Positions 4,101 through 55,144 of a DNA stretch of 64,000 bases are shown here, in pieces (positions within the stretch are counted from its first letter, which is position 1; the number at the start of each line of letters is the position of its first letter). The DNA is from Lentibacillus persicus (GTDB taxonomy: Bacteria > Bacillota > Bacilli > Bacillales > Amphibacillaceae): NCBI RefSeq assembly GCF_900112705.1, contig NZ_FOMR01000005.1, positions 1 through 64,000 of the forward strand, read 5' to 3'. The position numbers were made by a program, and so were the translations under genes. The notes under the pieces are model-generated. The model had not been told where the DNA came from. It saw nothing but the letters and a program-made list of their open reading frames with translations, and made no database searches.

Positions 4101-5945
4101 AATGAGGCGTTTGACGACAGCCGCAAACCGCTGGCGGCACAGTTTGAATTTAACGGCGAAGAAGTTGTTGTCGTCGCCAATCACTGGAATTCCAAATCGG
4201 GCGATACGCCATTGTTCGGTTCCACACAGCCGCCTGAACTCGGCAGTGAAGACCAGCGCATGGCAATTGCCAATGTGGTGAACGGTTTTGTTGACGATAT
4301 TTTGGCTGACAATTCAGAGGCCAACGTGGTGCTGTTGGGCGACTTTAACGACTTCCAGTTTTCCAACCCAATGGAGATGTTAGAAGGCGATGTTTTGACC
4401 AACTTGATCGACGATGTGCCTGAAGCGGAGCGCTACACGTACACGTATCAAGGCAACTCACAGGTGCTCGATCACATTCTTGTGTCAAGCAATTTGGCAG
4501 ATGCTTCTGAGGTCGATGTGCTGCATATCAATGCTGATTTCACCGACATGCACGGGCGTGCAAGCGACCACGATCCGGTGCTGGCGGCGATTGATTTAGC
4601 CGCTGATGAACCCGAGCCAAACGTTCCGGAAAAATCGTTCACGCTAAAAGATTTCACGACCAATGATTTGGTTGTAACATCACCAAGCGTTGCGATCAGC
4701 TTGGCTGCGTCATCTGAAATTGCAGGCGATCTGACGCTCACCGGTGATTATGCCAAATTGACCGGTGAAGGACTCGCGGCCACAAGCATCGAAATCAATC
4801 CGGAAAATGAAGGCGCAATTGTCGACTTTGCCGGCTATGAAATTGAAGAAGTCGAAGTGAACGGCGAAAATCTCAGTGAAATACGCGGAGCGGAGGGCAT
4901 TCAGGAAATAGACTATAAAAACGGCGCTGATCCGGAGACTATCACATTTACCGATTCAAATGGCGAATCACTCGGCACACCGACTTTTCCGATCGTGAAC
5001 AGTGCACCGGTTCTTGAGCAGCCAATCGATGATGTGACGATGGCAGCGGGGAGTGAAACGGTGATTGAATTAACCGATCATTTCAGCGACCCCGATGGTG
5101 ATGCGCTCAGCTTCACGTCAACGCACGGCACAATCGATGGTTCAACGTTTACGTTCAGCCCGGATGAGGGTACACATGACGTAACGGTGACAGCTGATGA
5201 CGGCGAAGCAACCGTTTCGGCTGAATTTACCGTAACCGCTGAGGCGCAGGAAGGCGATCCGTATTATGACGATGCATACGGAAAAGAAGGCGATGCGTTA
5301 AAAGATTCATTGCATGAGATCATTTCCGATCATGACCAGCTGTCGTATGATGAGGTGTGGTCGGCTTTGAGGGAAACCGATGAAGACCCGGACAATCCGG
5401 AAAACGTACGGCTTTTCTATTCCGGCGAGTCACGCTCAAAAGATAAAAACGGCGGTATGGTCGGTGATTGGAACCGCGAGCACGTCTGGGCGAAGTCGCA
5501 CGGGGACTTCGGCACGCGCACCGGCCCCGGCACCGACATCCATCATTTGCGCCCGACCGACGTGCAGGTGAACAGCTCGCGCGGCAATCTGGATTTCGAT
5601 AACGGCGGCGAGGCAGATGTGACCAATTGCGACGAATGCAAGCGCGACGGCGACTCGTGGGAACCGCCGAACGATGTGAAAGGTGACGTTGCCCGCATGC
5701 TGTTTTACATGGCGGTGCGCTATGAAGGCAACAACTATGTGGATCTCGAATTGAACGAGCAAACCGGAAACGGCAGCGCACCGTACCACGGCAAACTTTC
5801 CGTCCTGCTCGACTGGCACGAGCAGGACCCAGTCGACACCTACGAAATGAACCGCAACGATGCCATACATGACGAACAAGGCAACCGCAACCCATTCATC
5901 GACCACCCACAATGGGCAGAAGCGATCTGGGACAGGGGGACGTGA
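1101..5945 (+). CDS. Giant secreted double nuclease (YhcR/ExeM-type EEP nuclease fused to endonuclease I)
   Basis: The protein has 1614 residues with a signal peptide (MKLKKYQ... ending near AKAADG). ATG 1101 is preferred over the in-frame ATG 1086 because GGGGGAGG lies between them. Domains in order: an OB-like domain (~35-150); a lamin-tail domain (MSEYVEGSGYNKALEFYN, ~155-275); a second OB domain (~320-495); a chitobiase-like C-terminal fold (~505-585); an ExeM/NucH-type module (~590-850); an endonuclease/exonuclease/phosphatase domain (~855-1165, with ASYNLENF, ANHWNSKSGD, LLGDFNDF, SDHDPV); a cadherin-like domain (~1300-1385); and endonuclease I (~1390-1614, with NREHVWAKSHG, GTDIHHLRP and SSRGNLDFDNGG). 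It probably degrades extracellular DNA/RNA for nutrient scavenging. The last residues DRGT and the TGA stop lie inside a GGGAC repeat. No SLH or sortase signal is seen, so it is probably released. Confidence 0.9.
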   Translation: MKLKKYQRSSSIFLTIIMVVSLLTPASGGIAKAADGTISVADAIENNSGEASVEGYIVGTFQNGPKVVTDPAAYSGTNLALADDPNETDPANVLPVQLPSGDVRDNLNLAEHPELAGEKVILTGNLDAYFGQPGLKDTFDYQMAAEAPAAESLIMSEYVEGSGYNKALEFYNGTGEAIDLTEYSVELYSNGNSEANATLDLSGTLEEGQAYVVYNGQAADALIEKGDLENNSVTNFNGDDAIVLKESDTVIDSFGQVGVQDAWGENVTLIRKPSVTSGDTTTDDAFDPADEWTDHPQNTFENLGAHDLGDSPPPEDEPDVLTIAEARAQGTGDVTVEGTVTAELNNTIHIQDDTAALAIYPKSALDVQRGDRITVSGSLSEYNGLLQLQNPTLTEAPVQGEGTDPIELTGAELNEENESKLARVDNVTLETANDGGNWINYTATDGTAEFLVRDENAALGLTEGATYDSITGIVQEFNGDYQILPRDTADIVADDSVVQPVTATPEAGTIPSGTAVELSTTTEGAAIYCTTNGDDPLENGTLYQEPITVNDDVTIRAAATHDDRDPSPVQTFDYSVYDAEEGVQIHDIQGDGHASPMVGQHVENVEGIVTYIYDLNGGNYLHIQTPDDQTDDNPATSEGLVVYTGNEKADVSIGDLVSVNGTADEYHIDGYSDASETDLPVTQINARGDQGGAVDVLEKDAGLPEPVEITQENLPDEIASDEGFDEFDREQYAIDFWESLEGMRVQTGDLKAVAPQEHGDLITTLDEMSTDTINGGLLHTEDDKNPGRIQFKLHDNYEARDFKVATGDTFDGPMTGVVNYGYQNYKIYADLADMENAHSAGPAEPETTTIKKRDDELTVASYNLENFSNNASSGETPDAKAEKLARAFAHDMESPDIVGVTEVQDNNGQDAGPDDADASESYERLIDEIEEAGGVSYDYANINPEYNEDGGAPDANIRVGFLYNPDRVSLADDMPKGDATTAIGYENGKLTHNPGRIDPTNEAFDDSRKPLAAQFEFNGEEVVVVANHWNSKSGDTPLFGSTQPPELGSEDQRMAIANVVNGFVDDILADNSEANVVLLGDFNDFQFSNPMEMLEGDVLTNLIDDVPEAERYTYTYQGNSQVLDHILVSSNLADASEVDVLHINADFTDMHGRASDHDPVLAAIDLAADEPEPNVPEKSFTLKDFTTNDLVVTSPSVAISLAASSEIAGDLTLTGDYAKLTGEGLAATSIEINPENEGAIVDFAGYEIEEVEVNGENLSEIRGAEGIQEIDYKNGADPETITFTDSNGESLGTPTFPIVNSAPVLEQPIDDVTMAAGSETVIELTDHFSDPDGDALSFTSTHGTIDGSTFTFSPDEGTHDVTVTADDGEATVSAEFTVTAEAQEGDPYYDDAYGKEGDALKDSLHEIISDHDQLSYDEVWSALRETDEDPDNPENVRLFYSGESRSKDKNGGMVGDWNREHVWAKSHGDFGTRTGPGTDIHHLRPTDVQVNSSRGNLDFDNGGEADVTNCDECKRDGDSWEPPNDVKGDVARMLFYMAVRYEGNNYVDLELNEQTGNGSAPYHGKLSVLLDWHEQDPVDTYEMNRNDAIHDEQGNRNPFIDHPQWAEAIWDRGT

Positions 5946-6028
5946 TCACTGTCCCCATCTCCCCCGACGAGCATTGAATGAGAATGGGACAGGGGGACAG
6001 AGGGACGCCGTTCACGTCCCCTTGTCCC
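5929..6028. repeat. GGGAC/GATC palindromic repeats (2 copies)
   Basis: Copy 1 (5929-5956, plus orientation) overlaps the last codons and stop of the nuclease gene. Copy 2 (5986-6028) is a longer, fully two-sided palindrome starting GGGACAGGGGGAC and ending GTCCCCTTGTCCC, with GTTC instead of GATC at the centre. The arrangement, including the spacer GAGCATTGAAT, recurs at 7113-7204. Confidence 0.9.
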
Positions 6029-6067
6029 ACCTTGTCCCCCCATAGAATGTTTAGGAGGTTTGGTATT

Positions 6068-7111
6068 TTGACAACACGATGGATGAAGATGTTATCAACG
6101 GGATTTCTTGCATTTTTGCTCGTGCTGACAATGCAGGGTGCCGTTTCAGCGGCAAACATCAATTTCAATGATGTTGACGAAGGTGATGCGCACCACGAGG
6201 GCATTATGCAACTGGCACAAGAAGGAATAATAAACGGGTACGAAGATGGGTCGTTTGGAACGTTTGATAATGTAACACGGCAGCAAGTTGCTGTGATGCT
6301 TTCATTGGCAATGAATTTGGAGGCGCCGTCCAATATTGATCAAACGTTAGAGATTTACAATGATGTTAATCAAAACAGTCTGTATGCCGAAGAGATAGCT
6401 GCTGTAACACAAGCCGGCATTTTTAAAGGAAGCAATGGTAAATTTAAACCGACTAATGAAATAACCCGGCAACAGATGGCTACCGTTCTAGTACTTGGAC
6501 TGAATCTCAAAGACTATGAAACCAATCGTGATGTTGATATATATTTGGAAAATGTCGATCCATCACATGCTGAAAGAGTGCAAACATTGGCAAACCTTGG
6601 TATCACAACACAACTTAATGATTTTCGGCCGGCTGAAATGCTTGTCAGAGGCCAGTTTGCCACCTTCTTATATGAATCAATGAAGATTACAGGTATGCTG
6701 ACTGACGAAAATATAAGCACTTCCACATCTGAGGAGGAAGTTGTGGAACTTGTTAATGAAGAGCGTGTTAAGAGGGACCTGGAACCGCTGGAAATGCACA
6801 GTCGATTGAGTGACCTTGCGCGCAGGAAATCACGTGACATGGCACTCAATAATTACTTCAGCCACACATCACCGACATACGGATCGCCTTTTGATATGAT
6901 GCGACAGTTTGATTTCAGTTTCCGTACTGCCGGGGAAAATATTGCGGCAGGTCAGCGAAGTCCTGAACAAGTAGTGGAAAGCTGGATGAACAGTGAGGGG
7001 CATCGTGAAAATATATTGAATGAAGGATTTACTCACATAGGCGTCGGTTACGTGGAAGATACTGAGAGCCCTTACCGCACCTACTGGACACAACTGTTCA
7101 TGACACCATAG
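6068..7111 (+). CDS. SLH-anchored CAP/SCP-domain protein
   Basis: This 347-aa exported protein is predicted to start at TTG 6068, because AGGAGG lies 9 nt upstream; further upstream the frame runs through repeat DNA. A signal peptide (to ~residue 28, ending VSAA) is followed by three SLH domains (~29-205; EGIINGYEDGSF, ITRQQMATVL and a third, weaker unit), which by family knowledge bind pyruvylated secondary wall polymer. A C-terminal CAP domain (~225-345) shows VVELVNEERVKRDLEPL, FSHTSPTYGSPFDM, GENIAAGQ and WMNSEGHRENIL. CAP proteins of this YkwD type are secreted and of uncertain biochemical role. The first ~200 residues, leader and TTG start closely match the next gene, so the two arose by tandem duplication with exchange of the C-terminal domain. 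Confidence 0.9.
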   Translation: MTTRWMKMLSTGFLAFLLVLTMQGAVSAANINFNDVDEGDAHHEGIMQLAQEGIINGYEDGSFGTFDNVTRQQVAVMLSLAMNLEAPSNIDQTLEIYNDVNQNSLYAEEIAAVTQAGIFKGSNGKFKPTNEITRQQMATVLVLGLNLKDYETNRDVDIYLENVDPSHAERVQTLANLGITTQLNDFRPAEMLVRGQFATFLYESMKITGMLTDENISTSTSEEEVVELVNEERVKRDLEPLEMHSRLSDLARRKSRDMALNNYFSHTSPTYGSPFDMMRQFDFSFRTAGENIAAGQRSPEQVVESWMNSEGHRENILNEGFTHIGVGYVEDTESPYRTYWTQLFMTP

Positions 7112-7112
7112 C

Positions 7113-7204
7113 GGGACGAGGGGACGGGATCACTGTCCCCCAAAAGAGCATTGAATAAAGGGACAAGGGGACAGAGGGACGGCGTTCGCGTCCCCCTGTC
7201 CCCC
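7113..7204. repeat. GGGAC/GATC palindromic repeats (2 copies)
   Basis: Copy 1 (7113-7140, plus orientation) begins 1 nt after the preceding stop. Copy 2 (7160-7204) is the extended two-sided form with a GTTC centre. The layout matches 5929-6028. Confidence 0.9.
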
Positions 7205-7285
7205 TAAATTTAGTTATATCTGCTCTTTAATTTGATAGAGTTTTAGATTATTATGGATAATAGAATGTTTAGGAGGTGCGATATT

Positions 7286-8960: not shown

Positions 8961-9057
8961 GGGACAAGGGGACGTGATCGTTGTCCCCCGGGGTTAACAC
9001 CGGGGCAACGGGAACGTCCTCTTTTTAAGAGGGACAGGGGGACGGGATCGCTGTCCC
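8961..9057. repeat. GGGAC/GATC palindromic repeats (2 copies)
   Basis: Copies at 8961-8988 and 9031-9057, both in plus orientation, follow the stop of the glucosaminidase gene. Between 9058 and 9246 I see no gene. Confidence 0.9.
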
Positions 9058-9309: not shown

Positions 9310-9336
9310 GGGACAGTGATCCCGTCCCTCCGTCCC
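9310..9336 (-). repeat. GGGAC/GATC palindromic repeat
   Basis: One copy in minus orientation, 12 nt beyond the stop of the minus-strand LysM gene, before its terminator. Confidence 0.9.
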
Positions 9337-10658: not shown

Positions 10659-10685
10659 GGGACAGCGATCACGTCCCCCTGTCCC
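10659..10685 (-). repeat. GGGAC/GATC palindromic repeat
   Basis: One copy in minus orientation between the WalR-like box and the start of the plus-strand amidase gene. Confidence 0.9.
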
Positions 10686-10790: not shown

Positions 10791-12671
10791 ATGAGAAGGT
10801 CAGTCATCATTGCATTTATAGCTGTTTTAAGTTTTTTGTCAGTTCCGCTTCAGTTCTCAGCACACGAATCCGGTTCTGACGATCATTCTGAGGAACCGAA
10901 CAAACAGGAGATTGAAGAAGGTACCGAAGTCCACGGCATCGATATAAGTGAATTAACTGAAGAGGAATTGAAATATGTGCCTGAATCGTGGCGCGACGGG
11001 AAAATAGAAGAGGACGAGACAGAACACCCGGAAGCAGAGGAACATTACGACCCGGAAGAAGATAATGAAAAAGAAGAACGCAACATCAGCCTGCAGGAGA
11101 GTTCATATATTAATAATTACATATTGAACAACGGTCTGTCCGCAGCTCAAACAGAATACAATCACCTCCATCATTTGCCGAAATTCGGCTACCGGTTCAC
11201 CGGACCCGAGGGGATTGTCGCCCACGAAACGGCGAATGATTACTCTACCATCGATGGTGAAATCTCTTACATGTCACGAAACTATCAAAATGCGTTTGTC
11301 CATGCATTTGTCGATCATGAGCGTGTCATTGAGGTCCACCCGACAAACTACGCTGCGTGGGGCGCCGGGCCTGTAGCCAACGAACGCTTCATTCACGTGG
11401 AGCTTGTCCGTGTTGATAATAAAAACCAATTCATCCGTTCGATTAATAACTATGCTACATATATCGCCGGCCTTTTGTACAAATACAACCTTGGCTATGA
11501 TAATGCAGAGTGGGATGGTGAAGGCACGCTTTGGTCGCATGAAGCAGTGTCAAGGTATCTCGGTGGCACCAACCACGTTGATCCGCATGGATATTTTGAA
11601 CGCTACGGCTATGACTGGGCTGCGTTTGCCCGTCTGGTTTATGCAAAATTGAATGATATGGGTATGCAGACCGAAAATACGAGCAAGCTTGGTAAAATTA
11701 AATCAGAAGAAGATCCAATCTATGGCGATCCGGAAGACAATCAAAACTACAAAAAAGCCGGCGAGACGTACTCAGACCATGTTTATTTTATTAAACAACA
11801 AGGCAAACTGCGCGGCCAGACATATTATTTGATCAGTGACCATCATAAACGCGGTGAGGGTGTCATCGGCTGGGTGAACAGCAGAGATATTAATGTTAAA
11901 TCTCACACTGGTATCGACAGCAAAGATAAAATCAAAGCTGTAAAAGGTTCCGGATCGGCTTATTCCCTGGCCTGGGGCGGTGAAAAAGATAAAGTTTATC
12001 CTGATTTGTCGACGATGGAAGGGGAAAAATTCGAAGTTGACTTGACAGAAGAGGTCGGCAGCACGACGTGGTACCGTGGTATGTTGAACGGTAAACGCGT
12101 CTGGATTCAGGAGAGACACGTTGAACAGTTTGCAAACACCATGTTTAATGACGTGCCACCGGGATCGAGTCATTTTGACACTATCTATGAATTGGTGGAC
12201 ATGGGTGTGATTAACGGTTATCCGACTGAAGACGGTGCGGAATTCCGCCCGGGCGAGTCACTTTCGCGTTCGCATGCGGCAGTCATTTTCACAAACACAT
12301 TGGACCTGCCAATTCCGGATGATGTTGACGGCGTTTTAAGAAACTTTGATGATATTGATGGCTCGCACATGTATGCAGATCAAATTGCAGCAACCTATAA
12401 AGCAGGCATTTTCAGAGGAAGCAATGGGAAGTTTATGGATCAGCCGTTGACACGTGAACAGATGGCAACGGTCATTGCAGAAGCATTTGATCTTGAGGAT
12501 GCAGAAGGCTATACTGACATAAAGCTGAGCAGCGTATCACCTGATCACAAACGAAATGTGCAGCTGCTCGCTCATCACGGCATCACATCAGTGCCTGAAA
12601 ACTTCCGCTCATACGAAAACGTCACACGCGGCCAATTCGCAACCTTTGTCTTCAAAGCCATGAAAAACTAG
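10791..12671 (+). CDS. SLH-anchored N-acetylmuramoyl-L-alanine amidase (Amidase_2) with SH3/GW-like modules
   Basis: The 626-aa protein has an N-terminal signal peptide (~1-24) and an acidic linker (~25-105). An Amidase_2 zinc amidase domain (~125-285) contains GIVAHETAND, FVHAFVDHERVIEVHP, WGAGPVANERFIHVEL and NHVDPHGYF. The His residues of IVAHE and HVDPH are the expected zinc ligands, with a Glu in FIHVEL. Two SH3/GW-like modules (~305-450; GWVNSRDINVK and WYRGMLNGKRVWIQ) are followed by three C-terminal SLH domains (~452-626). It should cleave the bond between MurNAc and L-Ala and be held on the wall polymer. The stop codon TAG shares its last G with a GGGAC repeat. Confidence 0.92.
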   Translation: MRRSVIIAFIAVLSFLSVPLQFSAHESGSDDHSEEPNKQEIEEGTEVHGIDISELTEEELKYVPESWRDGKIEEDETEHPEAEEHYDPEEDNEKEERNISLQESSYINNYILNNGLSAAQTEYNHLHHLPKFGYRFTGPEGIVAHETANDYSTIDGEISYMSRNYQNAFVHAFVDHERVIEVHPTNYAAWGAGPVANERFIHVELVRVDNKNQFIRSINNYATYIAGLLYKYNLGYDNAEWDGEGTLWSHEAVSRYLGGTNHVDPHGYFERYGYDWAAFARLVYAKLNDMGMQTENTSKLGKIKSEEDPIYGDPEDNQNYKKAGETYSDHVYFIKQQGKLRGQTYYLISDHHKRGEGVIGWVNSRDINVKSHTGIDSKDKIKAVKGSGSAYSLAWGGEKDKVYPDLSTMEGEKFEVDLTEEVGSTTWYRGMLNGKRVWIQERHVEQFANTMFNDVPPGSSHFDTIYELVDMGVINGYPTEDGAEFRPGESLSRSHAAVIFTNTLDLPIPDDVDGVLRNFDDIDGSHMYADQIAATYKAGIFRGSNGKFMDQPLTREQMATVIAEAFDLEDAEGYTDIKLSSVSPDHKRNVQLLAHHGITSVPENFRSYENVTRGQFATFVFKAMKN

Positions 12672-12727
12672 GGACAAGGGGACGGGCTCACTGTCCCAGG
12701 GGGACAAAGATCCCGTCCCCTTGTCCC
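12671..12727. repeat. Inverted pair of GGGAC palindromes, 57 bp, identical to 19633-19689
   Basis: A plus copy (12671-12697, centre GCTC) and a minus copy (12701-12727) lie back to back. The same 57 bases occur without change at 19633-19689, so identical composite elements bracket the csaB cluster. Confidence 0.95.
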
Positions 12728-12736: not shown

Positions 12737-12806
12737 GAGAAGGCTCTTTCTAGATATACTTGCTGTGATAAACATGCATTTATGTTAGAGGGCCTTCTCG
12801 TTTTTT
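12737..12806 (+). terminator. Intrinsic terminator after the SLH amidase
   Basis: GAGAAGGC at 12737-12744 pairs with GCCTTCTC at 12792-12799, followed by GTTTTTT. The loop is about 47 nt. Confidence 0.6.
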
Positions 12807-19632: not shown

Positions 19633-19689
19633 GGGACAAGGGGACGGGCTCACTGTCCCAGGGGGACAAAGATCCCGTCCCCTTGTCCC
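19633..19689. repeat. Inverted pair of GGGAC palindromes, identical to 12671-12727
   Basis: A plus copy at 19633-19659 and a minus copy at 19663-19689 form the junction between two convergent genes. The minus-strand GT-C gene reads through the minus copy and stops inside the plus copy, so its last ~14 residues are repeat-encoded. Confidence 0.95.
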
Positions 19690-33470: not shown

Positions 33471-33497
33471 GGGACAGAGGGACGTGATCACCGTCCC
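33471..33497 (+). repeat. GGGAC/GATC palindromic repeat
   Basis: One plus-orientation copy, 2 nt after the stop of S-layer gene B. Confidence 0.9.
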
Positions 33498-33510: not shown

Positions 33511-33549
33511 AAAAAACCCTGCACGCTTTAATGCGTTGCAGGTTTTTTT
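33511..33549. terminator. Bidirectional intrinsic terminator between convergent S-layer genes
   Basis: AAAAAACC then CTGCA (to 33523) mirrors TGCAGG and TTTTTTT (33537-33549). A-run and T-run on either side make it work on both strands. Confidence 0.85.
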
Positions 33550-33581: not shown

Positions 33582-33667
33582 GGGACAGCGATCCCGTCCC
33601 CTTGTCCCACTTTTGTCGGGACGGTGATCCCGTCCCCGTGTCCCTTGTCCCTCGTCCCCGTGTCCCT
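33582..33667 (-). repeat. GGGAC/GATC palindromic repeats (2 copies plus a partial)
   Basis: Minus-orientation copies at 33582-33608 and 33618-33644, with extra half-units (GTCCC blocks) filling the gap to the stop codon of the minus-strand SLH gene. Confidence 0.88.
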
Positions 33668-35813: not shown

Positions 35814-35887
35814 GGGACAGGGGGACGTGATCGGTGTCCCTCGCTCGGATGTTATCCGGGGGGACATAGGGACGGGATCGGTGTCCC
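35814..35887 (+). repeat. GGGAC/GATC palindromic repeats (2 copies)
   Basis: Plus-orientation copies at 35814-35840 and 35861-35887, each followed by a similar flank (GCTCGGATG-TATCC), so the flank was duplicated with the palindrome. Confidence 0.88.
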
Positions 35888-36020: not shown

Positions 36021-36047
36021 GGGACAGTGATCCCGTCCCCGCGTCCC
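36021..36047 (-). repeat. GGGAC/GATC palindromic repeat
   Basis: One minus-orientation copy, 2 nt beyond the stop of the minus-strand SEC-C gene. Confidence 0.9.
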
Positions 36048-37150: not shown

Positions 37151-37264
37151 GGGACAGGGGGACGTGATCGGCGTCCCGCTCCACTTTATCGGGGGGGGAC
37201 AGCGATCCCGTCCCTTCGTCCCGCTCTACCGTACCGTGGGACAGTGATCCCGTCCCCCTGTCCC
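37151..37264. repeat. GGGAC/GATC palindromic repeats (3 copies)
   Basis: A plus copy at 37151-37177 and minus copies at 37196-37222 and 37238-37264, in front of the SLH subtilase gene. A TATAAT lies at 37282-37287 shortly after the last copy. Confidence 0.9.
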
Positions 37265-37327: not shown

Positions 37328-39436
37328 ATGAGGTGGAGAGGTTATTACATATTATTTATTTTAAGTGTTGTGCTGTTTGGGATGGCGATGTCGACGGGGT
37401 CTGTTCTGGCTGAGGATAGCTCGCGGATTCAGTCTGAGTACCGCAAAGCTAAAGCATCTGCTGAATTGGCAGAGTCGGAAAACGCGCAGGACGGCGCAGC
37501 GGTTCATGACCGGCGCATTATAATTAAAGTGAAAAAGGATGCAACTTTTAAACCAATGAACCTCGGCTTGAAAAAAGTTGAGCAGCGCGCCCAAACCCAA
37601 TACATAACGGTCCGTGTACCGGAAAACGCTGATTATCACAAAAAGCTGACCATTGTTAGGGAACATCCTGCTGTTGAAATGGCAGAGCCCGATTACCAGC
37701 GCGAGCTTTCTTACATACCTGATGCGCCTGGTTACGGGGAGCAATGGTATTTGGATAGAATCCGAATGCCTGAAGCATGGGAGTTGGAACGAGGCTCAGA
37801 CGAGATAACGGTAGCTGTACTCGATAGCGGCGTTGACCGCGACCACCCTGATTTAGAGGGCCGCGTTTTGCCCGGCTATGACGTGGTGAATGACAAGCCT
37901 GATCCGACTGATAATCTCGGACACGGGACAAGGGTAGCCGGTATCATTGCAGCAAACCCTGATTCGCCAGGCATCACAGGGATGGATTTCAACGTAAATA
38001 TTTTGCCGATCAAAGTGGTAAATGCCGATGGTGAAATAGCGTCTCAGGATGTTCAGAAAGGAATTTATTATGCTATTGAACACGGCGCAGATATTATTAA
38101 TATGAGTCTCGGCGCAAATCAGTACAGCGAGCTTGAAGAAGAAGCGATTGCCGCTGCAGAGGAAGCCGGCATCACATTAGTTGCGGCCGCGGGTAATGAT
38201 GGACTGAATCGGCCGTTTTACCCGGCTTCCTACCCCGGCGTCATCAGTGTTTCAGCTACTGATAAAAATGACGAGCGACCGTGGTTTTCCAATTACGGCC
38301 GCTACGTTGATATTGCAGCGCCCGGCTTATCAATTTATAGTACGGCGCTTAACGGCGAACATACCATAGACGACGGCACATCGTTTTCCGCGCCAATGAT
38401 TAGCGGCATGTCGGCACTGTTAAAAGCGGCGCATCCGGACGCCGAGCGCGATCAAATCGAATGGATGATGGAAAAATCAGCCGATCAAGTCAGCGGAAAA
38501 AGGTGGACAGAGTCGCTCGGTTACGGGCGGCTGAACGCTTATTCAGCGCTTCAAACCGATATGCCTGAATGGTCGAACGATGTTTCCGATGAAAAAGATG
38601 GCGCAACAAACGTGCAGCTGGATGAGCCGATGGAAGCAACATTAGCATCCCCTATGGATACGGACTGGTTTCAGGTCGATGTCGATTTTGAGGGGTTGCT
38701 TCATGTGTCTATTCCGGACGATTCAAGCATGCTTGATTTAGTGTCAGCGACGGAAGGGCCCGATGGCGAGCGGCAATTTTTTGATAATGCTGGTAAAGGC
38801 AGCGGGGAAGATTTTGTTCTCCCTGTTGAAAAAGGAACCTATCATATTGCGGTGTTTGATGCTTATGATCACTGGTCCGAAAAAGGGTACCAGATTGAGG
38901 TTTCGAAAACTTATTTTGAAGATGCGGGCATGTACAGGGAACAAATCGATGCCCTCGTTGAAGACGGCGTCATCCGCGGCTTTCCCGATGGCGAGTTTAA
39001 ACCGGAGCGAAATATTACACGGTTGCAGGCGGTGAAAATGCTGTTGAAAGATATGGAAGTTGATTGGCACGAATATGATGCCGCCGATCCGGGATTTTCA
39101 GACATGCATCCGAAAATGGACGGGTTTCATGCGGTCGCAGCAGCAGCGGATATTGGTTTTATTAAGGGAAAAAATGATAACACCTTTGATCCTAACGGCC
39201 AGTTGACCCGCGGCCAAATGGCAGCCATCCTGGTCAAAGCGTATAGGCTGGAAGGAGGCAGCAGCCTGGAATTTGCCGATGTCCCGGATGACCACTGGGC
39301 ACACGACGTGATTAGCACACTCGTCCATAACAACATCGCCAAAGGCTACCCGGACAACACCTACCGCCCAGCCGAAAAAATAACACGCCAACACTTCACC
39401 ACCCTCCTGTACAACACGAGGGACAGGGGGACGTGA
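37328..39436 (+). CDS. SLH-anchored subtilisin-like serine protease (S8)
   Basis: The protein has 702 residues from ATG 37328, 8 nt after GAGGA; GTG 37313 is less likely. A signal peptide (~1-25) is followed by an I9-like propeptide (~45-115: RRIIIKVKKDATF, MAEPDYQ). The S8 domain (~125-405) carries all three catalytic motifs: Asp in AVLDSGVDRDHPD, His in NLGHGTRVAG and Ser in GTSFSAPM. A pre-peptidase C-terminal-like beta domain (~430-535) and three C-terminal SLH domains (~540-702; DGVIRGFPDGEF, LTRGQMAAIL, IAKGYPDNTY) follow. It is probably a wall-bound protease for nutrition or processing of surface proteins. The last residues DRGT and TGA lie in the GGGAC repeat, as in the nuclease gene. 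Confidence 0.93.
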   Translation: MRWRGYYILFILSVVLFGMAMSTGSVLAEDSSRIQSEYRKAKASAELAESENAQDGAAVHDRRIIIKVKKDATFKPMNLGLKKVEQRAQTQYITVRVPENADYHKKLTIVREHPAVEMAEPDYQRELSYIPDAPGYGEQWYLDRIRMPEAWELERGSDEITVAVLDSGVDRDHPDLEGRVLPGYDVVNDKPDPTDNLGHGTRVAGIIAANPDSPGITGMDFNVNILPIKVVNADGEIASQDVQKGIYYAIEHGADIINMSLGANQYSELEEEAIAAAEEAGITLVAAAGNDGLNRPFYPASYPGVISVSATDKNDERPWFSNYGRYVDIAAPGLSIYSTALNGEHTIDDGTSFSAPMISGMSALLKAAHPDAERDQIEWMMEKSADQVSGKRWTESLGYGRLNAYSALQTDMPEWSNDVSDEKDGATNVQLDEPMEATLASPMDTDWFQVDVDFEGLLHVSIPDDSSMLDLVSATEGPDGERQFFDNAGKGSGEDFVLPVEKGTYHIAVFDAYDHWSEKGYQIEVSKTYFEDAGMYREQIDALVEDGVIRGFPDGEFKPERNITRLQAVKMLLKDMEVDWHEYDAADPGFSDMHPKMDGFHAVAAAADIGFIKGKNDNTFDPNGQLTRGQMAAILVKAYRLEGGSSLEFADVPDDHWAHDVISTLVHNNIAKGYPDNTYRPAEKITRQHFTTLLYNTRDRGT

Positions 39437-39485
39437 TCACTGTCCCCCCCATGAGAGAGGGACAAGGGGACGGGAACTGTGTCCC
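39420..39485 (+). repeat. GGGAC/GATC palindromic repeats (2 copies)
   Basis: Copy 39420-39446 contains the stop codon of the subtilase gene. Copy 39459-39485 is a variant with GGGAACTG in place of GATCACTG. Confidence 0.88.
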
Positions 39486-39501: not shown

Positions 39502-39548
39502 AACCCTCGGATTCTATCAACCGATTAATGATAGAACCCGAGGGTTTT
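39502..39548 (+). terminator. Intrinsic terminator after the SLH subtilase
   Basis: AACCCTCGG plus TTCTATC pair with GATAGAA plus CCGAGGGTT, then TTTCG. A long two-part stem, beyond the repeat pair. Confidence 0.8.
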
Positions 39549-39621: not shown

Positions 39622-39657
39622 GGGGACGCCGATCACGTCCCCCCGTCCCCCTTGTCC
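39622..39657 (-). repeat. GGGAC/GATC palindromic repeat
   Basis: One minus-orientation copy followed by an extra CTTGTCC half-unit. The TTGTCC (39652-39657) is 17 bp from a TATAAT at 39675. Confidence 0.85.
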
Positions 39658-39763: not shown

Positions 39764-39829
39764 GGGACAGAGGGACGTGATCACTGTCCCACGGGGGAAA
39801 GGGGGACGGCGATCCCGTCCCCTTGTCCC
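39764..39829. repeat. GGGAC/GATC palindromic repeats (inverted pair)
   Basis: Plus copy 39764-39790 and minus copy 39803-39829, ending 8 bases before the ribosome binding site of the SLH 5'-nucleotidase gene. Confidence 0.9.
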
Positions 39830-42037: not shown

Positions 42038-42101
42038 GGGACGAGGGGACGGGATCACTGTCCCCCGGGAGAGCGGGACAGAGGGACGTGATCGCTGTCC
42101 C
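42038..42101 (+). repeat. GGGAC/GATC palindromic repeats (2 copies)
   Basis: Plus-orientation copies at 42038-42064 and 42075-42101 after the nucleotidase stop. Confidence 0.9.
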
Positions 42102-42136
42102 GCCCGTCCCTGCGTCCCACATAAATGTCAATGTAG

Positions 42137-42190
42137 ATGCCCTCTGGTTCTATCAGTGAATGGTAGAATCAATCAGAGGGCATTTTTTTT
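42137..42190 (+). terminator. Intrinsic terminator after the SLH 5'-nucleotidase
   Basis: ATGCCCTCTG pairs with CAGAGGGCAT and is followed by eight T. Confidence 0.85.
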
Positions 42191-42223: not shown

Positions 42224-42250
42224 GGGACGCCGATCCCGTCCCCCTGTCCC
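42224..42250 (-). repeat. GGGAC/GATC palindromic repeat at the 3' end of the RAYT gene
   Basis: Minus-orientation copy starting 2 nt beyond the TAG stop of the transposase gene. Confidence 0.92.
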
Positions 42251-42252: not shown

Positions 42253-43014
42253 CTAAAGCCTCCCAATCACGCTCCTTGAAATTCCGGTCAAGCGGGAAAG
42301 TTGTCTGACCGACACGCCCTCCATCTCCTTCAATTCAAGTAAAATGGCGTTTCGCTCTTTGATTTCCAGACGCTGCAATGCGCTTGTATTTGTGACACCT
42401 TTCAATTTTAAAAAGCTGCGGATTTCCTCGTCTTCCAACCGTACTTTATCCGAATACGTCAGGCATGTATCATCATTTTTTTCCTGCATATACGCGGTGA
42501 ACAGCGGTATAGATTTCTTGCGATCGGGTGAGAAAAGGCGAAGACCCAAATCCACATCGACGAGATCATCGGATGAGGTGTAATAGGCGGCGATGCTTGT
42601 CCAGCGCGATGTCAAAACATCGTTGCTCAAGCCTGCTTTAAGAGGATTTTGATGAATGTAGCGAAGCACGGTTAAGAAGTAAGCCGAATCCAGAACGTTT
42701 TCGCTCCGGTAACGGCCCTGAAACAGCGGTCCGACACGGTCGTATTTGGCATTATACCAGTGGACGTAACTTGAACTGATGCGCTGGATAGCTTTGGCGA
42801 GCGGCTCCTTTTCTTCGCGAATCAGCAGGTGAATGTGATTATTCATTAAGCAGTAGGCGTAAAGCTTGAACTCGCTGACCGGTTTATAGCGTTTCAACGT
42901 TTCAAGCAGTTTGTATCTGTCACTGTCGTCTTCGAAAATTGCCTGCTTATTGACGCCGCGCATCATCACATGATAGACACCGCTCGGGCTTTTCAGACGC
43001 GGTCCTCTCGGCAT
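42253..43014 (-). CDS. REP-associated tyrosine transposase (RAYT, Y1/IS200-like HUH superfamily)
   Basis: The protein has 253 residues from ATG 43014, with AAGGAGGTGA just upstream; the frame extends to 43035. RPRLKSPSGVYHVMMRGVNK-type N-terminus, the HUH motif in YCLMNNHIHLLI, the candidate catalytic Tyr region SSYVHWYNAKYDR with GPLFQGRYRS, and LRYIHQNPLKAGL are the signature of Y1 transposases of the RAYT type. The C-terminus (VSVRQLSRLTGISRSVIGRL) is a helix-turn-helix. RAYTs nick single-stranded palindromic REP elements (known for TnpA-REP of enterobacteria). This gene has GGGAC palindromes 2 nt after its stop and ~130 bp before its start, and no IS ends of its own are visible, so it is the likely mobiliser of the repeat family. 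Confidence 0.92.
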   Translation of the reverse strand: MPRGPRLKSPSGVYHVMMRGVNKQAIFEDDSDRYKLLETLKRYKPVSEFKLYAYCLMNNHIHLLIREEKEPLAKAIQRISSSYVHWYNAKYDRVGPLFQGRYRSENVLDSAYFLTVLRYIHQNPLKAGLSNDVLTSRWTSIAAYYTSSDDLVDVDLGLRLFSPDRKKSIPLFTAYMQEKNDDTCLTYSDKVRLEDEEIRSFLKLKGVTNTSALQRLEIKERNAILLELKEMEGVSVRQLSRLTGISRSVIGRL

Positions 43015-43143
43015 TATGAACTCACCTCCTTTCAAACGTAGATTTGGTTTTATGAAATGAAAAAATGTTGGGAAAAATTACGGAAAAGCTGTTCGTGAAA
43101 ATAGTTGACAAGGCGTGGCGGGGAAGGTTTGAAATGGGTGAGG

Positions 43144-43209
43144 GGGACGCCGATCCCGTCCCCCCGTCCCACACCCCCGAGGGGGACGCCGATCACGTCC
43201 CCTTGTCCC
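43144..43209 (-). repeat. GGGAC/GATC palindromic repeats (2 copies)
   Basis: Minus-orientation copies at 43144-43170 and 43183-43209, upstream of the RAYT gene. The second overlaps the last codons and stop of slaP. Confidence 0.92.
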
Positions 43210-46575: not shown

Positions 46576-46652
46576 GGGACAGGGGGACGGGATCGCTGGC
46601 CCACCTCTCTCTAAATGCGCGGCGGGGGACGGTGATGACGTCCCTTAGTCCC
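46576..46652. repeat. GGGAC/GATC palindromic repeats (2 copies)
   Basis: Plus copy 46576-46602 (end degenerated to CTGGCCC) and minus copy 46626-46652 (GATGACG centre) between secA2 and the ligase-like gene. The RBS AAGGAG follows directly. Confidence 0.85.
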
Positions 46653-47945: not shown

Positions 47946-47972
47946 GGGACACAGGGACGGGATCATTGTCCC
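47946..47972 (+). repeat. GGGAC/GATC palindromic repeat
   Basis: One plus-orientation copy, 57 nt after the stop of the ligase-like gene. Confidence 0.9.
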
Positions 47973-49469: not shown

Positions 49470-50076
49470 ACGGCTCTTCGACATCGCCGGCAGCGCCGCA
49501 TGTCTCGTGCTGCTCACACCGGTCTATGCGGGGGTTGCAGCAAGCATTCTGGCCGAAGATGGCCGGCCTGTTTTATTCAAACAAAAGCGGACCGGCAAAG
49601 ACGGCGTCACGTTCGATATTTATAAATTCCGTTCAATGAAAGTGCAGCAGGCGTCCGGAACGGGGAAAACGGCTGACGACAAGTATAACTGGCCGGACCG
49701 CGTGCCGGATGACTTCGTATTCAAACCGGCGTCACTCGATAATCCAAACATCACAAAAGCCGGCAAATTCATCCGAAAATATAGCCTGGATGAACTGCCG
49801 CAACTTTATAATGTCTTAAAAGGCGATATGAGCCTCATCGGCCCGCGCCCGGAAATCATCGAAATCACCCGATGCTACGACGCCCAGCAACGCGAGCGCC
49901 TCACCGTCAAACCTGGCATTACCGGCTGGGCGCAAGTCAACGGCCGCAGCAGCATGAACCACGGCGAAAAAATCAAACACGACCTCTACTACGTCAACAA
50001 CACCAGCCTCACACTCGACATCAAAATCATCATCAAAACAGCCACCCAAGTCCTCCTCGGCAAAAACGCCAGCTAG
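49399..50076 (+). CDS. Initiating sugar-phosphate transferase (bacterial sugar transferase / PglC-EpsL type)
   Basis: The 225-aa protein starts at GTG 49399 inside the previous gene, with GGGAGG 11 nt upstream. A single hydrophobic segment (~25-48: FKRLFDIAGSAACLVLLTPVY) is followed by the catalytic region FKQKRTGKDGVTFDIYKFRSM, SLDELPQLYNVLKGDMS, LIGPRP and KPGITGWAQVNGRS. These are diagnostic of polyprenyl-phosphate phosphoglycosyltransferases, which load the first sugar-phosphate on undecaprenyl phosphate. It lacks the N-terminal helices of WbaP. The product may feed the ligase-like protein upstream or the capsule operon at 55 kb. Confidence 0.9.
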   Translation: MKTSLNLTEKQSRQSRNPFQSAFKRLFDIAGSAACLVLLTPVYAGVAASILAEDGRPVLFKQKRTGKDGVTFDIYKFRSMKVQQASGTGKTADDKYNWPDRVPDDFVFKPASLDNPNITKAGKFIRKYSLDELPQLYNVLKGDMSLIGPRPEIIEITRCYDAQQRERLTVKPGITGWAQVNGRSSMNHGEKIKHDLYYVNNTSLTLDIKIIIKTATQVLLGKNAS

Positions 50077-50084: not shown

Positions 50085-50155
50085 GGGACAAGGGGACGTG
50101 ATCGCTGTCCCCCGCCAAAATCGACGGGGCAGGACGGCGATCACGTCCCCCTGTT
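50085..50155. repeat. GGGAC/GATC palindromic repeats (1 good, 1 degenerate)
   Basis: Plus copy 50085-50111, 8 nt after the sugar transferase stop; a degraded minus copy follows at about 50126-50155. Confidence 0.82.
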
Positions 50156-50160
50156 TCTTC

Positions 50161-50584: not shown

Positions 50585-50647
50585 GGGACGCCGATCCCGT
50601 CCCTCTGTCCCCAGCGGAGCGGGACAGCGATCCCGTCCCCTTGTCCC
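50585..50647 (-). repeat. GGGAC/GATC palindromic repeats (2 copies)
   Basis: Minus-orientation copies at 50585-50611 and 50621-50647; the second begins 3 nt beyond the stop of the minus-strand gene. Confidence 0.9.
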
Positions 50648-52335: not shown

Positions 52336-52399
52336 GGGACAGAGGGACGGGATCACCGTCCCACGTTAAAGAGGGACAAGGGGACGGGATCACTGTCCC
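52336..52399 (+). repeat. GGGAC/GATC palindromic repeats (2 copies)
   Basis: Plus-orientation copies at 52336-52362 and 52373-52399, upstream of the minus-strand lipoprotein gene. A half-unit (GGGGACACCCC) follows at about 52411. Confidence 0.88.
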
Positions 52400-52694: not shown

Positions 52695-52721
52695 GGGACA
52701 CCGTTCACGTCCCCCTGTCCC
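52695..52721 (-). repeat. GGGAC/GTTC palindromic repeat
   Basis: Minus-orientation copy with GTTC at the centre. Confidence 0.88.
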
Positions 52722-52839: not shown

Positions 52840-53780
52840 ATGGAAAAAGGTGACACACCTCTTATTCTTGAACCACCAGCACCGTACCTTGACCAGGATG
52901 GGCTTTGGAAAAAGGTCATTACGGAATTGTTCGAACCATTCGTCCTTTTCTTTGCCCCGGATCTTCACCCGGAATTGGATTGGAGCAAACAGCCCGATTC
53001 GCTGGAACAGGAATTTCATCGTGTTTTCCCTAAGAAAAAAGGCACCAAGCATACCGACAAACTGATGAAAGCCCACCTGAAAAACGGCGAAGAGCAATGG
53101 ATGCTCATTCACATTGAAGTTCAGGGATATAAGGAAGATGACTTTGCCGAGCGCATGTTTCAGTATTTTTACCGCATTTTTGATAAGTACCACAAGAAGA
53201 TTTACGCCATCGCTCTCTTCGCTGATCCGCTGAAACATTTAAACCCTCCCAATATACGTATCAATTTCACGGAACAGAACTAAACTACACGTACAACACA
53301 TATAAAATAATGGATCAGGATGAAGAAAAATTATTGCTGTCCGATAATCCGTTTGCCTACGCTGTTTTAGCCGGTTTGTATATGATAAAAAGCAGGAAAA
53401 ATGCCAGTAAGCGATATCAGTATAAACGCCGATTGATGGAATTGTTAGTAAAGGATCAAAAGGTAGATGCCCGTGGGTACGCGGGGGTATTGTTATACTT
53501 CATTGATTATTTGTTGGAGGTGCCCACTGATATGAAAGAGGCGTTGCAGGAGGAAATCGAACCAATGATAGAAGAGGAGGGGATACCTATGGGTGAAACG
53601 GAATTTCCTGATTCACCAACTTTGAAACCGATATATGATAAGATCAGGAAGGAAGGGAAGAAGGAAACTACAAAAGAAATAGCATTAGCCATGCTTCGGA
53701 AAAATTTTGCGGATGAAGATATCCTGGATGTAACGGGAATTACTGAAAAGGAATTGAACGATATAAAATCGGAACTGTAA
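52840..53780 (+). pseudogene. Rpn-family (YhgA-like) PD-(D/E)XK nuclease/transposase, frameshifted
   Basis: The first part (52840-53283) reads LDQDGLWKKVITELFEPFVLFF, EFHRVFPKKKGTKHTDKL, WMLIHIEVQGYKEDDFAERM and YRIFDKYHKKIYAIALFAD. The IHIEVQ block is the PD-(D/E)XK core of Rpn recombination-promoting nucleases. It stops at TAA 53281, but the other frame continues without gap as ELNYTYNTYKIMDQDEEKL and SDNPFAYAVLAGLY, the family's C-terminal half, to 53780. A single indel around 53265-53280 therefore splits one gene of about 310 codons. A sequencing error is possible. The end is again followed by a GGGAC repeat. Confidence 0.8.
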
Positions 53781-53787: not shown

Positions 53788-53814
53788 GGGACAGGGGGAC
53801 GGGATCACTGTCCC
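53788..53814 (+). repeat. GGGAC/GATC palindromic repeat
   Basis: Plus-orientation copy 7 nt after the stop of the Rpn pseudogene. From 53815 to 53884 I see nothing. Confidence 0.9.
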
Positions 53815-54163: not shown

Positions 54164-54165
54164 TG

Positions 54166-54709: not shown

Positions 54710-54736
54710 GGGACACCGTTCACGTCCCCCCGTCCC
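54710..54736 (-). repeat. GGGAC/GTTC palindromic repeat
   Basis: Minus-orientation copy with GTTC centre, ahead of the capsule operon. Confidence 0.88.
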
Positions 54737-54795: not shown

Positions 54796-54804
54796 TGTTA
54801 TAAT
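54796..54804 (+). promoter_or_regulatory. Candidate extended -10 (TGTTATAAT) upstream of the capsule operon
   Basis: Would give a ~370-nt leader filled with GGGAC palindromes. A second TATAAT at 55157-55162 lies just 20 nt before the first gene. Neither has a clear -35. Confidence 0.4.
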
Positions 54805-54840
54805 GCCGATTGTAGTGTCGAATCGTGTAACATCGATAGA

Positions 54841-54867
54841 GGGACAATGGGACGGGATCACTGTCCC
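54841..54867 (+). repeat. GGGAC/GATC palindromic repeat
   Basis: Plus-orientation copy in the capsule operon leader. Confidence 0.9.
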
Positions 54868-54996
54868 CCGGCGGGACAGCATACACATACCCGCCGGCAC
54901 CCGGTTAATCAGTGGGACACCAAAGGGGCAGGGTACACGCCCCACAGCCCCGCCATACAACGCGACGGGGAAGGGGAGGCACCTGGGGATATCAGT

Positions 54997-55144
54997 GGGA
55001 CACGGATCCCGTCCCTCCGTCCCCCGACGGCAGCGGAACGCCCGGCGCCCAAGCCATCACAGTCCAACCACCGGGACGCCGATCCCGTCCCCCTGTCCCA
55101 TCACCGGCCCAACCACCGGGACGCCGATCACGTCCCCCTGTCCC
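54997..55144 (-). repeat. GGGAC/GATC palindromic repeats (3 copies)
   Basis: Minus-orientation copies at 54997-55023, 55073-55099 and 55118-55144. The last two share the flank CCAACCACCGGGAC, showing recent local duplication. Confidence 0.9.

Follow-up and report, generated by a model that had tools for sequence, protein, structure and literature searches.

A clustered REP-like palindrome family and a RAYT-type transposase gene in Lentibacillus persicus

The repeat family and the transposase gene among its copies

The window, a stretch of 64,000 nt at the start of contig NZ_FOMR01000005.1 of Lentibacillus persicus, contains at positions 5929-55144 (49 kb) a dense family of short palindromic repeats with a transposase gene among them (Table 1). 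The repeat measures 27 bp in all: its first 8 nt are the tag GGGACARG, and the other 19 nt form an imperfect palindrome (GGGACGKGATCRCYGTCCC) inside which the GGGAC of the tag recurs. A pattern scan allowing up to 3 mismatches recovered 47 non-overlapping copies in the 49 kb, bearing out the original prediction of about 47 copies of a ~27-bp palindrome; a similar scan returned 69 rows, near-palindromic copies being counted on both strands, against a mean of 0.42 and a maximum of 3 in shuffled sequence. The 3.3-Mb genome holds 69 copies (71 scan rows minus 2 overlapping better copies), of which 9 lie on the rest of the contig and 13 on other contigs; these 22 copies outside the 49-kb region are mostly singletons. 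Genome-wide, most copies are intergenic and some overlap gene ends. GGGAC, which the search pattern itself demanded, stands at the start of 67 copies with at most 2 mismatches, and the bases before it are variable. The classical GT[AG]G tetranucleotide was not found at the 5' foot of these 67 copies, nor was a fixed target tetranucleotide ahead of the head, where the sequence is merely rich in A and has a G at the second upstream position (60%). The window has no Rfam match at gathering scores.

The transposase gene, which the original prediction does not mention, encodes a protein with the signature H-x-H plus Y---NP. It matches PF01797 (E 3e-14) and scores 68.3 bits against NF047646, under the curated cut-off of 80. 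Residues H60, H62, Y119, N123, P124, R237, Q238, T243 and G244 are invariant in 12 transposase sequences, its own included. The structural model (mean pLDDT 88) ends in C-terminal helices, and its best PDB match in Foldseek is 4er8, a REP-associated transposase with a REP hairpin (E 1e-8), which a profile search also puts first (E 0.0025). The protein is a RAYT/TnpA_REP relative with a predicted C-terminal helix-turn-helix (HTH), the latter read by eye from the sequence and the modelled helices. The proposed likeness of the repeat to REP/BIME elements was right, and a RAYT-type gene sits within the cluster. PADLOC matched nothing for this protein or for two ORFs at 52.8-53.8 kb.

Table 1. Repeat copies, transposase gene and REP-independent terminators in the window
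Feature	Coordinates	Strand	Remark
REP copy	5929..5955	+	supplies TGA stop of gene ending at 5945
REP copy	6002..6028	-	
REP copy	7113..7139	+	1 nt past stop 7111
REP copy	7176..7202	-	
REP copy	8961..8987	+	1 nt past stop 8959
REP copy	9031..9057	+	
REP copy	9310..9336	-	12 nt past stop 9349, minus gene
REP copy, single	10659..10685	-	
REP copy	12671..12697	+	completes TAG stop; doublet with 12701..12727
REP copy	12701..12727	-	doublet partner of 12671..12697
Terminator, REP-independent	12737..12799	+	beyond doublet 12671-12727
REP copy	19633..19659	+	3 nt past stop 19629
REP copy	19663..19689	-	doublet partner of 19633..19659; within 3' end of ORF 19650-21143
REP copy	33471..33497	+	2 nt past stop 33468
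Bidirectional terminator hairpin, REP-independent	33518..33542	.	beyond stop-abutting copies of both convergent genes
REP copy	33582..33608	-	
REP copy	33618..33644	-	22 nt past stop 33667, minus gene
REP copy	35814..35840	+	
REP copy	35861..35887	+	
REP copy	36021..36047	-	2 nt past stop 36050, minus gene
REP copy	37151..37177	+	
REP copy	37196..37222	-	
REP copy	37238..37264	-	
REP copy	39420..39446	+	supplies TGA stop of gene ending at 39436
REP copy	39459..39485	+	
Terminator, REP-independent	39502..39546	+	beyond copies 39420 and 39459
REP copy	39623..39649	-	
REP copy	39764..39790	+	
REP copy	39803..39829	-	
REP copy	42038..42064	+	3 nt past stop 42034
REP copy	42075..42101	+	
Terminator, REP-independent	42136..42184	+	beyond copies 42038 and 42075
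REP copy	42224..42250	-	2 nt past transposase gene stop
RAYT/TnpA_REP-type HUH-Y1 transposase gene	42253..43035	-	start uncertain: TTG 43035 or ATG 43014
REP copy	43144..43170	-	upstream of transposase gene
REP copy	43183..43209	-	supplies TGA stop and last residues of S-layer assembly gene 43193-44089
REP copy	46576..46602	+	
REP copy, degenerate	46626..46652	-	
REP copy	47946..47972	+	57 nt past stop 47888
REP copy	50085..50111	+	8 nt past stop 50076
REP copy, degenerate	50131..50157	-	
REP copy	50585..50611	-	
REP copy	50621..50647	-	3 nt past stop 50651, minus gene
REP copy	52336..52362	+	
REP copy	52373..52399	+	
REP copy	52695..52721	-	
REP copy	53788..53814	+	7 nt past stop 53780
REP copy	54710..54736	-	
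REP copy	54841..54867	+	
REP copy	54997..55023	-	
REP copy	55073..55099	-	
REP copy	55118..55144	-	

Arrangement of copies relative to each other and to genes

Neighbouring copies no more than 200 nt apart are mostly arranged head-out: the order +- outnumbers -+ by 13 to 2 in the window, 18 to 0 in the relative G017 and 34 to 1 in the relative G024. A fixed doublet spacing is clear only in G024 (28 of 34 at 61-62 nt) and is variable in the window and G017. Of three doublets folded, two form one long hairpin (z -7.6 for 12671-12727, and -6.8), while the third (7113-7202) gives two hairpins. Two doublets lying 7 kb apart are 95% identical across 66 nt. Some doublet spacers in the window contain terminators.

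Gene ends were assessed on calls from a simple codon-usage script, the Pfam-supported gene 49399-50076 being added by hand for the orientation, synteny and placement counts. All 16 stop-adjacent cases originally named (10 on the plus strand, 6 on the minus strand) do have the copy in the sense of the gene. The distance of 0-12 nt claimed for them does not hold in every case: heads lie 17 nt inside the coding sequence in three genes and the gap is 22 nt at 33667. In three genes the element itself supplies the TGA stop (copies at 5929, 39420 and 43183) and in one it completes a TAG (12671). The orientation rule also survives tabulation over the genome: among copies that overlap a gene end or lie at most 15 nt from a stop, 30 are same-sense and 3 opposite. 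Under a slightly altered counting rule they number 30 and 2, where random intergenic placement yields 6.6 +/- 2.4 same-sense copies, 16 at the most in 2000 simulations. Copies outside the window, mostly singletons, are same-sense in 14 cases and opposite in 2. Start codons are faced by 17 heads and 10 tails, in agreement with the claim that copies before genes are usually inverted; pooled over three genomes the figures are 75 and 23. The further claim that genes internal to operons are free of copies is valid in the window but fails in G024, where 7 of the 25 co-directional gaps with copies leave at most 56 nt outside the copies and resemble operon junctions. The variant elements of G017 and G024 have the same placement at stops as the own element.

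At one gene end, the ortholog in the relative G004 terminates as ...YPIQ-stop and the own protein as ...YPIQ-GDKGT-stop, the tail being encoded by the element; judged from this one ortholog, an insertion occurred precisely at the native stop. Comparison of REP-adjacent gene ends with G004 orthologs was clean in only one of four cases, and it revealed no empty site at the nucleotide level. For other REP families, PMC3733652 describes copies that lie no more than 20 bp from stops and copies that provide the stop codon.

Related genomes and the nearest known systems

In a sample of 119 genomes of the family, the own included, at least 10 copies of a GGGAC...GTCCC palindrome occur in 19 of the 27 genomes with the transposase gene versus 3 of the 92 without it (Fisher p 5e-13), with up to 187 pattern rows per genome among the relatives; 8 of the 27 carriers have fewer than 10 copies. 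At 10 of 13 RAYT loci the stop of the RAYT gene has a copy some 30 nt away or less, in the same sense in four (the own, G017, G024 and L104) and inverted in six. The gene is placed between inverted copies in L112, L119, G068, G074 and G138; outer inverted repeats in L119 were considered as terminal repeats and rejected, being parS-like palindromes. Flanking repeats of the relatives fit a GGGGWSAS motif (GGGGACAG), where the own element has GGGGACGK. Within 20 kb on each side of the RAYT gene the general pattern was absent from three of eight relatives (G004, G028 and G045). Of these, G028 has another palindrome type, and G004 has just 2 copies with at most 1 mismatch genome-wide and none of the pattern near its RAYT, though its transposase gene is 60% identical to the own. 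The match to the gene in G024 contains a TAA.

Copies are concentrated round the gene in the four genomes tested for distance, which were picked since gene and copies were known there, leaving out G008, G022, G062, G065, G074 and others. Besides the 47 of 69 copies in the 49 kb holding the gene in the own genome (distances there being tabulated for contig C4 only), the gene has 27 of 72 sites no more than 50 kb away in G017 and 8 of 23 in G007 (1.8 and 0.6 expected), and 21 of 66 in G024 among the matches listed (1.7 expected). These tests used all 92 matches in G017, all 23 places in G007 and, in G024, the 73 exact matches among the matches listed, of 164 with at most 1 mismatch. The gene ranks in the top 0.4-1.7% of all 50-kb centres in G024, G017 and G007. 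Density does not fall monotonically with distance from the gene, and a second REP cluster, without a RAYT match, is present in G017 at 3.84-3.89 Mb. Most of the sequence inspected in G017 (120 kb) and G024 (134 kb) was taken from parts dense in REPs. The replication terminus was considered as the cause of clustering and rejected: the RAYT loci of G017, G024 and G007 lie about 0.8-1 Mb from dnaA on ~4-Mb chromosomes, and not opposite it. The open-access literature searched yielded no report of a concentration of REPs round a RAYT gene, of local hopping or cis preference of REPs, or of RAYT and REP with Firmicutes and palindromic; the matches listed there for the motif string GGGGACAGG with REP were all unrelated by title.

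The kind of repeat is already known. The TIRtron/TIRYT elements (Di Nocera 2013, PMC3733652) are TnpAY1 subclass 2.1 (Quentin 2018, PMC6006769) and RAYT group 1, and their flanking repeats carry a GGGG[AT][CG]A[CG] motif, with dimers and clusters dispersed in some genomes. The HUH-Y1 protein, the Y---NP signature, the probable C-terminal HTH and, in the five relatives named above, the position between inverted copies are held in common; on such features, and not on a tree with reference sequences, we provisionally assign the transposase to subclass 2.1. Reports on this subclass describe it as lacking REP-like sequences close to the gene; here a 27-bp palindromic REP family accompanies the gene and reaches 69 copies in the genome. 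This element has GGGGACGK in place of GGGGACAS, and the pair of copies closest to the own gene share one orientation. REPINs (Bertels and Rainey 2011, PMC3116915) are likewise inverted doublets able to fold, spacer included, as one hairpin and form clusters beside RAYT genes, their singlets being thought remnants; they differ in host phylum and sequence, and the present family has fixed spacing only in G024 and copies concentrated round the gene. With E. coli REP/BIME and TnpA_REP, the family shares palindromes at gene 3' ends, partly within 15-20 nt of stops, and a cognate HUH-Y1 gene whose product best matches 4er8; it differs in having no GT[AG]G tag, in the GGGAC tag repeated in the palindrome and in the extra, predicted HTH. 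The description of Bhal-1 in Bacillus halodurans, a 74-bp stem-loop family of 36 copies (PMC2267715), offers a lead: likened by description and not by sequence, it could be a similar moderate-copy family of REPIN-like size in Bacillus.

Origin of the cluster and of the same-sense rule

We propose, with a probability of about 0.85, that the repeat is a non-autonomous mobile REP, most likely copied by the HUH-Y1 transposase of 42253-43035, and that the same-sense rule is mainly geometry. The proposal draws on what can be read from sequence: the gene and its predicted fold, the co-occurring REP families, the head-out order, the concentration in four genomes and, as judged from a single ortholog, the insertion at a native stop. 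By analogy with E. coli TnpA_REP and the IS200/IS605 enzymes, the transposase would cut and move copies as single strands. Its activity may be greatest in the neighbourhood of the gene encoding it; copies would then pile up there, and they would survive where harm is small, above all between a stop codon and a terminator. As copies tend to form head-out doublets, the head of the outer copy would face the neighbouring gene and give the same-sense rule; the mostly single copies outside the window would be covered by this geometry only if their partners have decayed. If the copies also influence RNA ends, or ribosomes at the stop codon, that influence would be incidental.

The original prediction had taken the orientation rule and the proximity to stops as suggesting a selected role in 3'-end formation, mRNA stability or translation-transcription uncoupling. 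In the form considered here, a same-sense hairpin behind the stop would shield the 3' end of the mRNA or stall ribosomes, and selection would maintain its orientation. The same-sense excess at stops, which extends to the mostly single copies outside the window, would fit such a role, as would the report, cited in PMC12306157, that E. coli REPs stall ribosomes when a stop lies 15 nt away or less. However, heads face start codons too, the RAYT stop is abutted by inverted copies at more loci than by same-sense ones, short co-directional gaps of G024 are also filled, and the variant elements of G017 and G024 are placed alike at stops; with only 22 copies outside the 49-kb region, the majority of the genome's genes lack the element. 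The claim is unsupported, head-out geometry largely accounting for the same-sense rule, and we consider a selected role unlikely and not needed to account for the pattern; copies may still affect RNA or ribosomes, by analogy with E. coli REPs. A reading in which the copies themselves terminate transcription of these units is very improbable. Standard terminator scans gave no clear excess over shuffles, and a folding script was therefore used. It found no REP-independent terminator within 260 nt at six ends (7111, 8959, 42253, 47888, 50076 and 53780), a few single copies with T-rich flanks appear terminator-like (minus 7206-7164, 33499-33477 and 50603-50585; plus 50132-50148), and the copy that follows stop 8959 pairs with DNA downstream of it, ahead of a T-run, all of which would suit terminators. 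Yet the consensus lacks the T-run after the element that an intrinsic terminator (hairpin, then T-run) would show, 7 of the 18 ends examined (12671, 33468, 33667, 36050, 39436, 42034 and 50651) have a separate REP-independent terminator farther out than the copy, and the two ends without a REP that were inspected, 29324 and 30442, carry ordinary terminators.

Two further readings concern the place and not the gene ends. The cluster might mark an S-layer or surface locus, with the copies as recombination points shuffling cassettes of SLH-protein genes, rather than the transposase; the region has seven genes for SLH-domain proteins, and the near-identical doublets 7 kb apart are in keeping with this. 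We regard it as very improbable, as the clusters of G017 and G024 lie round the transposase gene among apparently metabolic genes (judged from predicted proteins). In G004, the syntenic S-layer locus is free of copies over 60 kb, a weak comparison because that genome has hardly any copies anywhere and none near its own RAYT. Alternatively, the repeats are REPs of this transposase, but a tolerant region of the chromosome gathers gene and copies with no local spreading. The second dense region of G017, which is without the gene, and the richness of the window region in surface genes speak for such tolerance; the fact that four genomes have an excess of copies at the gene, with gene content differing among the three inspected, the high rank of the gene among 50-kb centres, and dnaA positions that do not put the clusters opposite the origin speak against it. 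Because the G004 comparison is weak and three RAYT neighbourhoods are without copies, we give the tolerant region serious weight, while leaning away from it, and advance only tentatively, as a possibility with the odds against it, that Bacillota RAYT subclass 2.1 enzymes spread REPs locally, at or near stops, and that the gradient of REP density records the present or past site of the RAYT. Under transposition by the 42253-43035 enzyme, the tidy placement beside stops looks mainly like a by-product of the build of the element and of the sites where it is tolerated.

REP elements are common bacterial repeats, and the manner of their spread has remained unclear. Three points are new: a RAYT subclass reported without REPs is seen here with them, the REPs are concentrated round the gene, and one element has, as judged from the ortholog, inserted precisely at a native stop. 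The strict orientation and stop proximity of a repeat alone are, as a warning, no evidence of a selected regulatory role, and elements inserting at stop codons rewrite protein C-termini. A transposase gene in a local cloud of its own REPs, in several Bacillota genomes and in differing neighbourhoods, is a tractable system that suggests short-range dissemination; if the local reading is true, REP dispersal would be distance-dependent, perhaps cis-preferring, instead of genome-wide.

A REP family clustered around a transposase gene

The 27-bp element (consensus GGGACARGGGGACGKGATCRCYGTCCC; base frequencies from 67 own-genome copies with at most 2 mismatches) occurs in the window in 47 copies (Table), the number that the original prediction had approximately given. 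The Lentibacillus persicus genome (3.31 Mb, 23 contigs) yields 71 rows at ≤3 mismatches, or 69 copies once 2 overlapping rows are dropped; 47 fall in this 49 kb, 9 elsewhere on the same contig and 13 on other contigs, giving densities of 0.96 per kb in the cluster versus 0.007 per kb in the remaining genome. An ORF within the cluster codes for a Y1 transposase (PF01797, E 3e-14), and a copy of the element starts 2 nt beyond its stop codon. The protein scores 68.3 bits with the NCBIfam model for REP-associated tyrosine transposases (RAYTs), under the cut-off of 80. Its alignment with 11 relatives shows that both HUH histidines and the Y---NP residues are kept, as are C-terminal residues of an apparent helix-turn-helix (HTH), and the top PDB match of its AlphaFold model (mean pLDDT 88) is 4er8, a RAYT with REP hairpin (E 1e-8). 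By RAYT sequence, the closest relatives with a name belong to Bacillota, and the sole other PF01797 match of the genome has an open frame of 140 aa. Judged by signature and HTH, the protein fits TnpAY1 subclass 2.1 (RAYT group 1).

In many relatives with the RAYT gene the palindrome takes a form particular to them, resembling GGGACATGGGGACAGGTTAGTTGTCCC in genomes G024 (164 at ≤1 mismatch) and G017 (92 copies), and being a symmetric GGGACANNGGGTCWGACCCNNTGTCCC in G007 and G008 (23 places in each). Among 119 genomes of the family, own included, with the gene called at E up to 1e-40, at least 10 copies of the general pattern are present in 19 of 27 genomes with the gene versus 3 of 92 without it (Fisher p 5e-13), leaving as exceptions 8 with and 3 without the gene. 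RAYT surroundings fetched for 8 relatives, 20 kb on each side, contain copies in G017, G024, G022, G007 and G008; the general pattern was not found within this distance in G004, G028 and G045, which counts against the co-occurrence, and the G028 surroundings contain a palindrome of another type. The own genome also contains a pair GGGGTCAGACCCC...GGGGTCTGACCCC (Table) similar to the G007/G008 type, so that it may harbour several types of REP.

Features of the window, the own genome and relatives (C4, own-genome contig; C1, contig of G017; L-handles, fetched stretches)
Feature	Coordinates	Strand	Observation
REP cluster	window 5929-55144		47 copies
RAYT gene	window 42253-43035	-	inside REP cluster
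Folded doublet	window 12671-12727		one long hairpin, z -7.6
Folded doublet	L090:399-486		one long hairpin, z -6.8
Folded doublet	window 7113-7202		two separate hairpins
Similar doublets	window 12670 and 19632		7 kb apart; 95% identical over 66 nt
SLH-protein genes, neighbouring	window 6042-6341 and 7260-7559		common 300-nt stretch, 74% identical
Adjoining ORFs	window 52840-53777		N- and C-terminal parts of one Rpn-family nuclease model
GGGGTCAGACCCC...GGGGTCTGACCCC pair	L077 near 14080 (C4 about 230 kb)		like G007/G008 REP type
Second repeat family	L074:5974-6235 (C4 about 89.5 kb)		adjoins REP copy
Second repeat family	L078:5508-5653 (C4 about 241 kb)		adjoins REP copy
Second repeat family	L075 after 12100		beside REP copy, judged by eye
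Array of AATCGTGCGRGRCC-like units	L077:16842-17093 (C4 about 233 kb)		21-nt spacing; 84-nt stretches 65-73% alike; adjoins REP copy
Second dense REP region	G017:C1:3836000-3890000 (L182, L183; 3.84-3.89 Mb)		
TGTTTCACGTGAAACA palindromes	L119 7246-7261 and 8130-8145		enclose RAYT and two REP copies

Doublets and the orientation of copies

Neighbouring copies ≤200 nt apart stand in plus-minus rather than minus-plus order, with the GGGACARG end (head) outward and the opposite end (tail) inward, at 13:2 in the window, 18:0 in G017 and 34:1 in G024, where the spacing is 61 or 62 nt in 28 of 34 doublets. This matches the REPIN arrangement, described as an inverted doublet able to fold as a hairpin (PMC3116915); three doublets were folded (Table). 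From the orientation rule and the proximity to stop codons, the original prediction had inferred a selected role in 3'-end formation, mRNA stability or translation-transcription uncoupling. The orientations themselves are correct in all 16 stop-adjacent cases that it named, and genome-wide tabulation, as it had proposed, gave 14 same-sense versus 2 opposite among the own-genome copies beyond the window, mostly singletons. As the outer ends of a head-out pair face neighbouring genes in either direction, they yield both a same-sense copy at a stop and an antisense copy at a start. Across three genomes, copies ≤15 nt from a stop comprise 80 heads and 5 tails, and those facing start codons 75 heads and 23 tails; since heads face starts as well as stops, the rule is not about transcription as such. 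The weak point of this explanation is the singletons outside the window, which are read here as decayed doublets, in line with how the REPIN authors (PMC3116915) read singlets; strand-specific insertion or selection could instead have produced those that abide by the rule.

Among 13 RAYT loci, the copy at the RAYT stop is same-sense in four (own, G017, G024, L104) and inverted in six (L109, L111, L112, L113, L119, L126), and the pattern was not found beside the stop in L037, L106 and L108. A plus-gene-minus unit of RAYT gene and copies is seen in L112, L119, G068, G074 and G138. In L119, from a Syntrophomonas MAG, the flanking TGTTTCACGTGAAACA palindromes are parS-like.

Copies at gene ends

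Same-sense copies near stops number 30, compared with 6.6 +/- 2.4 (maximum 16) in 2000 random intergenic placements. Relative to the gene end, offsets peak at -17 (six copies, TGA within GTGATC) and at -1 (four copies, TA|GGGAC), and a further six copies lie 35-50 nt inside it. The distances of 0-12 nt in the original prediction need correction for three genes with an element-borne TGA stop, one with an element-completed TAG, and the end at 33667 (22 nt). Where copies overlap gene ends, the predicted proteins acquire tails, GDKGT and RDTGTGSLSPKRL among them. The terminus of the S-layer assembly protein is YPIQ-stop in G004 and YPIQ-GDKGT-stop here, so that the element appears, judged from this one ortholog, to have been inserted exactly at the stop codon; comparison with G004 orthologs at four gene ends next to REPs gave this one clean case, the other three being too diverged to judge. 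Stop proximity and element-supplied stops recall published families, which lie no more than 20 bp from 3' ends and in many cases provide a TAG stop (PMC3733652); ribosome stalling by E. coli REPs ≤15 nt from a stop is reported, as cited in PMC12306157.

With the copies masked, 7 of 18 gene ends (12671, 33468, 33667, 36050, 39436, 42034 and 50651) have an element-independent terminator farther out than the copy that abuts the stop, and 9349 has a weak one; none was found ≤260 nt from ends including 7111, 8959, 42253, 47888, 50076 and 53780. A few copies with T-rich flanks scored as terminator-like in scans. The element is not the terminator as a rule, though it may have a role in termination at ends without a separate one. 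Internal operon genes, predicted to be free of copies, are so in the window; unlike there, 7 of the 25 copy-bearing gaps between co-directional genes in G024 leave only 24-56 nt outside the copies, so that doublets also occupy apparent operon junctions.

Side observations touch the repeats and genes of these loci (Table). The common SLH stretch and near-identical doublets may reflect a duplication and a doublet that was copied. A second repeat family adjoining some REP copies forms arrays of degenerate 20-21-bp units (e.g. AATATGTGCCGGTGC / GAAATATGTTCCGGAGC). The Rpn-family ORF pair, with weak matches (20 and 25 bits versus a cut-off of 52), is perhaps a broken gene.

Concentration around the gene and known systems

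When copies within 300 nt are merged into sites, 21 of the 66 sites in G024 lie ≤50 kb from RAYT (1.7 expected), as do 27 of the 72 in G017 (1.8 expected) and 8 of the 23 in G007 (0.6 expected), and the gene ranks in the best 0.4-1.7% of all possible centres. In these genomes and the own contig, density peaks ≤25 kb from the gene and then declines, though not monotonically. Our preferred reading is that the enzyme acts locally, close to the gene encoding it, the main rival being a tolerant chromosome region. The RAYT neighbourhoods are unlike, with surface proteins in the own genome and apparent metabolic genes in G024 and G017. The second dense region of G017 contains no RAYT match, which counts against a simple local story and favours a tolerant region; it may mark either a lost transposase or such a region. 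In G004, the 60 kb of the syntenic S-layer locus are free of copies, but as hardly any such copies occur anywhere in that genome, this leaves the choice between gene and locus undecided. A replication terminus as the cause of clustering was rejected, since dnaA positions speak against it.

Quentin et al. report that subclass 2.1 genes had no REP-like sequences nearby in either automatic or manual searches, and link the subclass to TIRYTs with GGGG[AT][CG]A[CG] repeats (PMC6006769), a motif present in the palindromes of relatives studied here. According to Di Nocera et al., TIRs form families of moderate abundance, many of them arranged as dimers or clusters, and most REP families are dispersed through the whole genome (PMC3733652). 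The present family joins these systems, as a palindromic REP in Bacillota concentrated around its gene.
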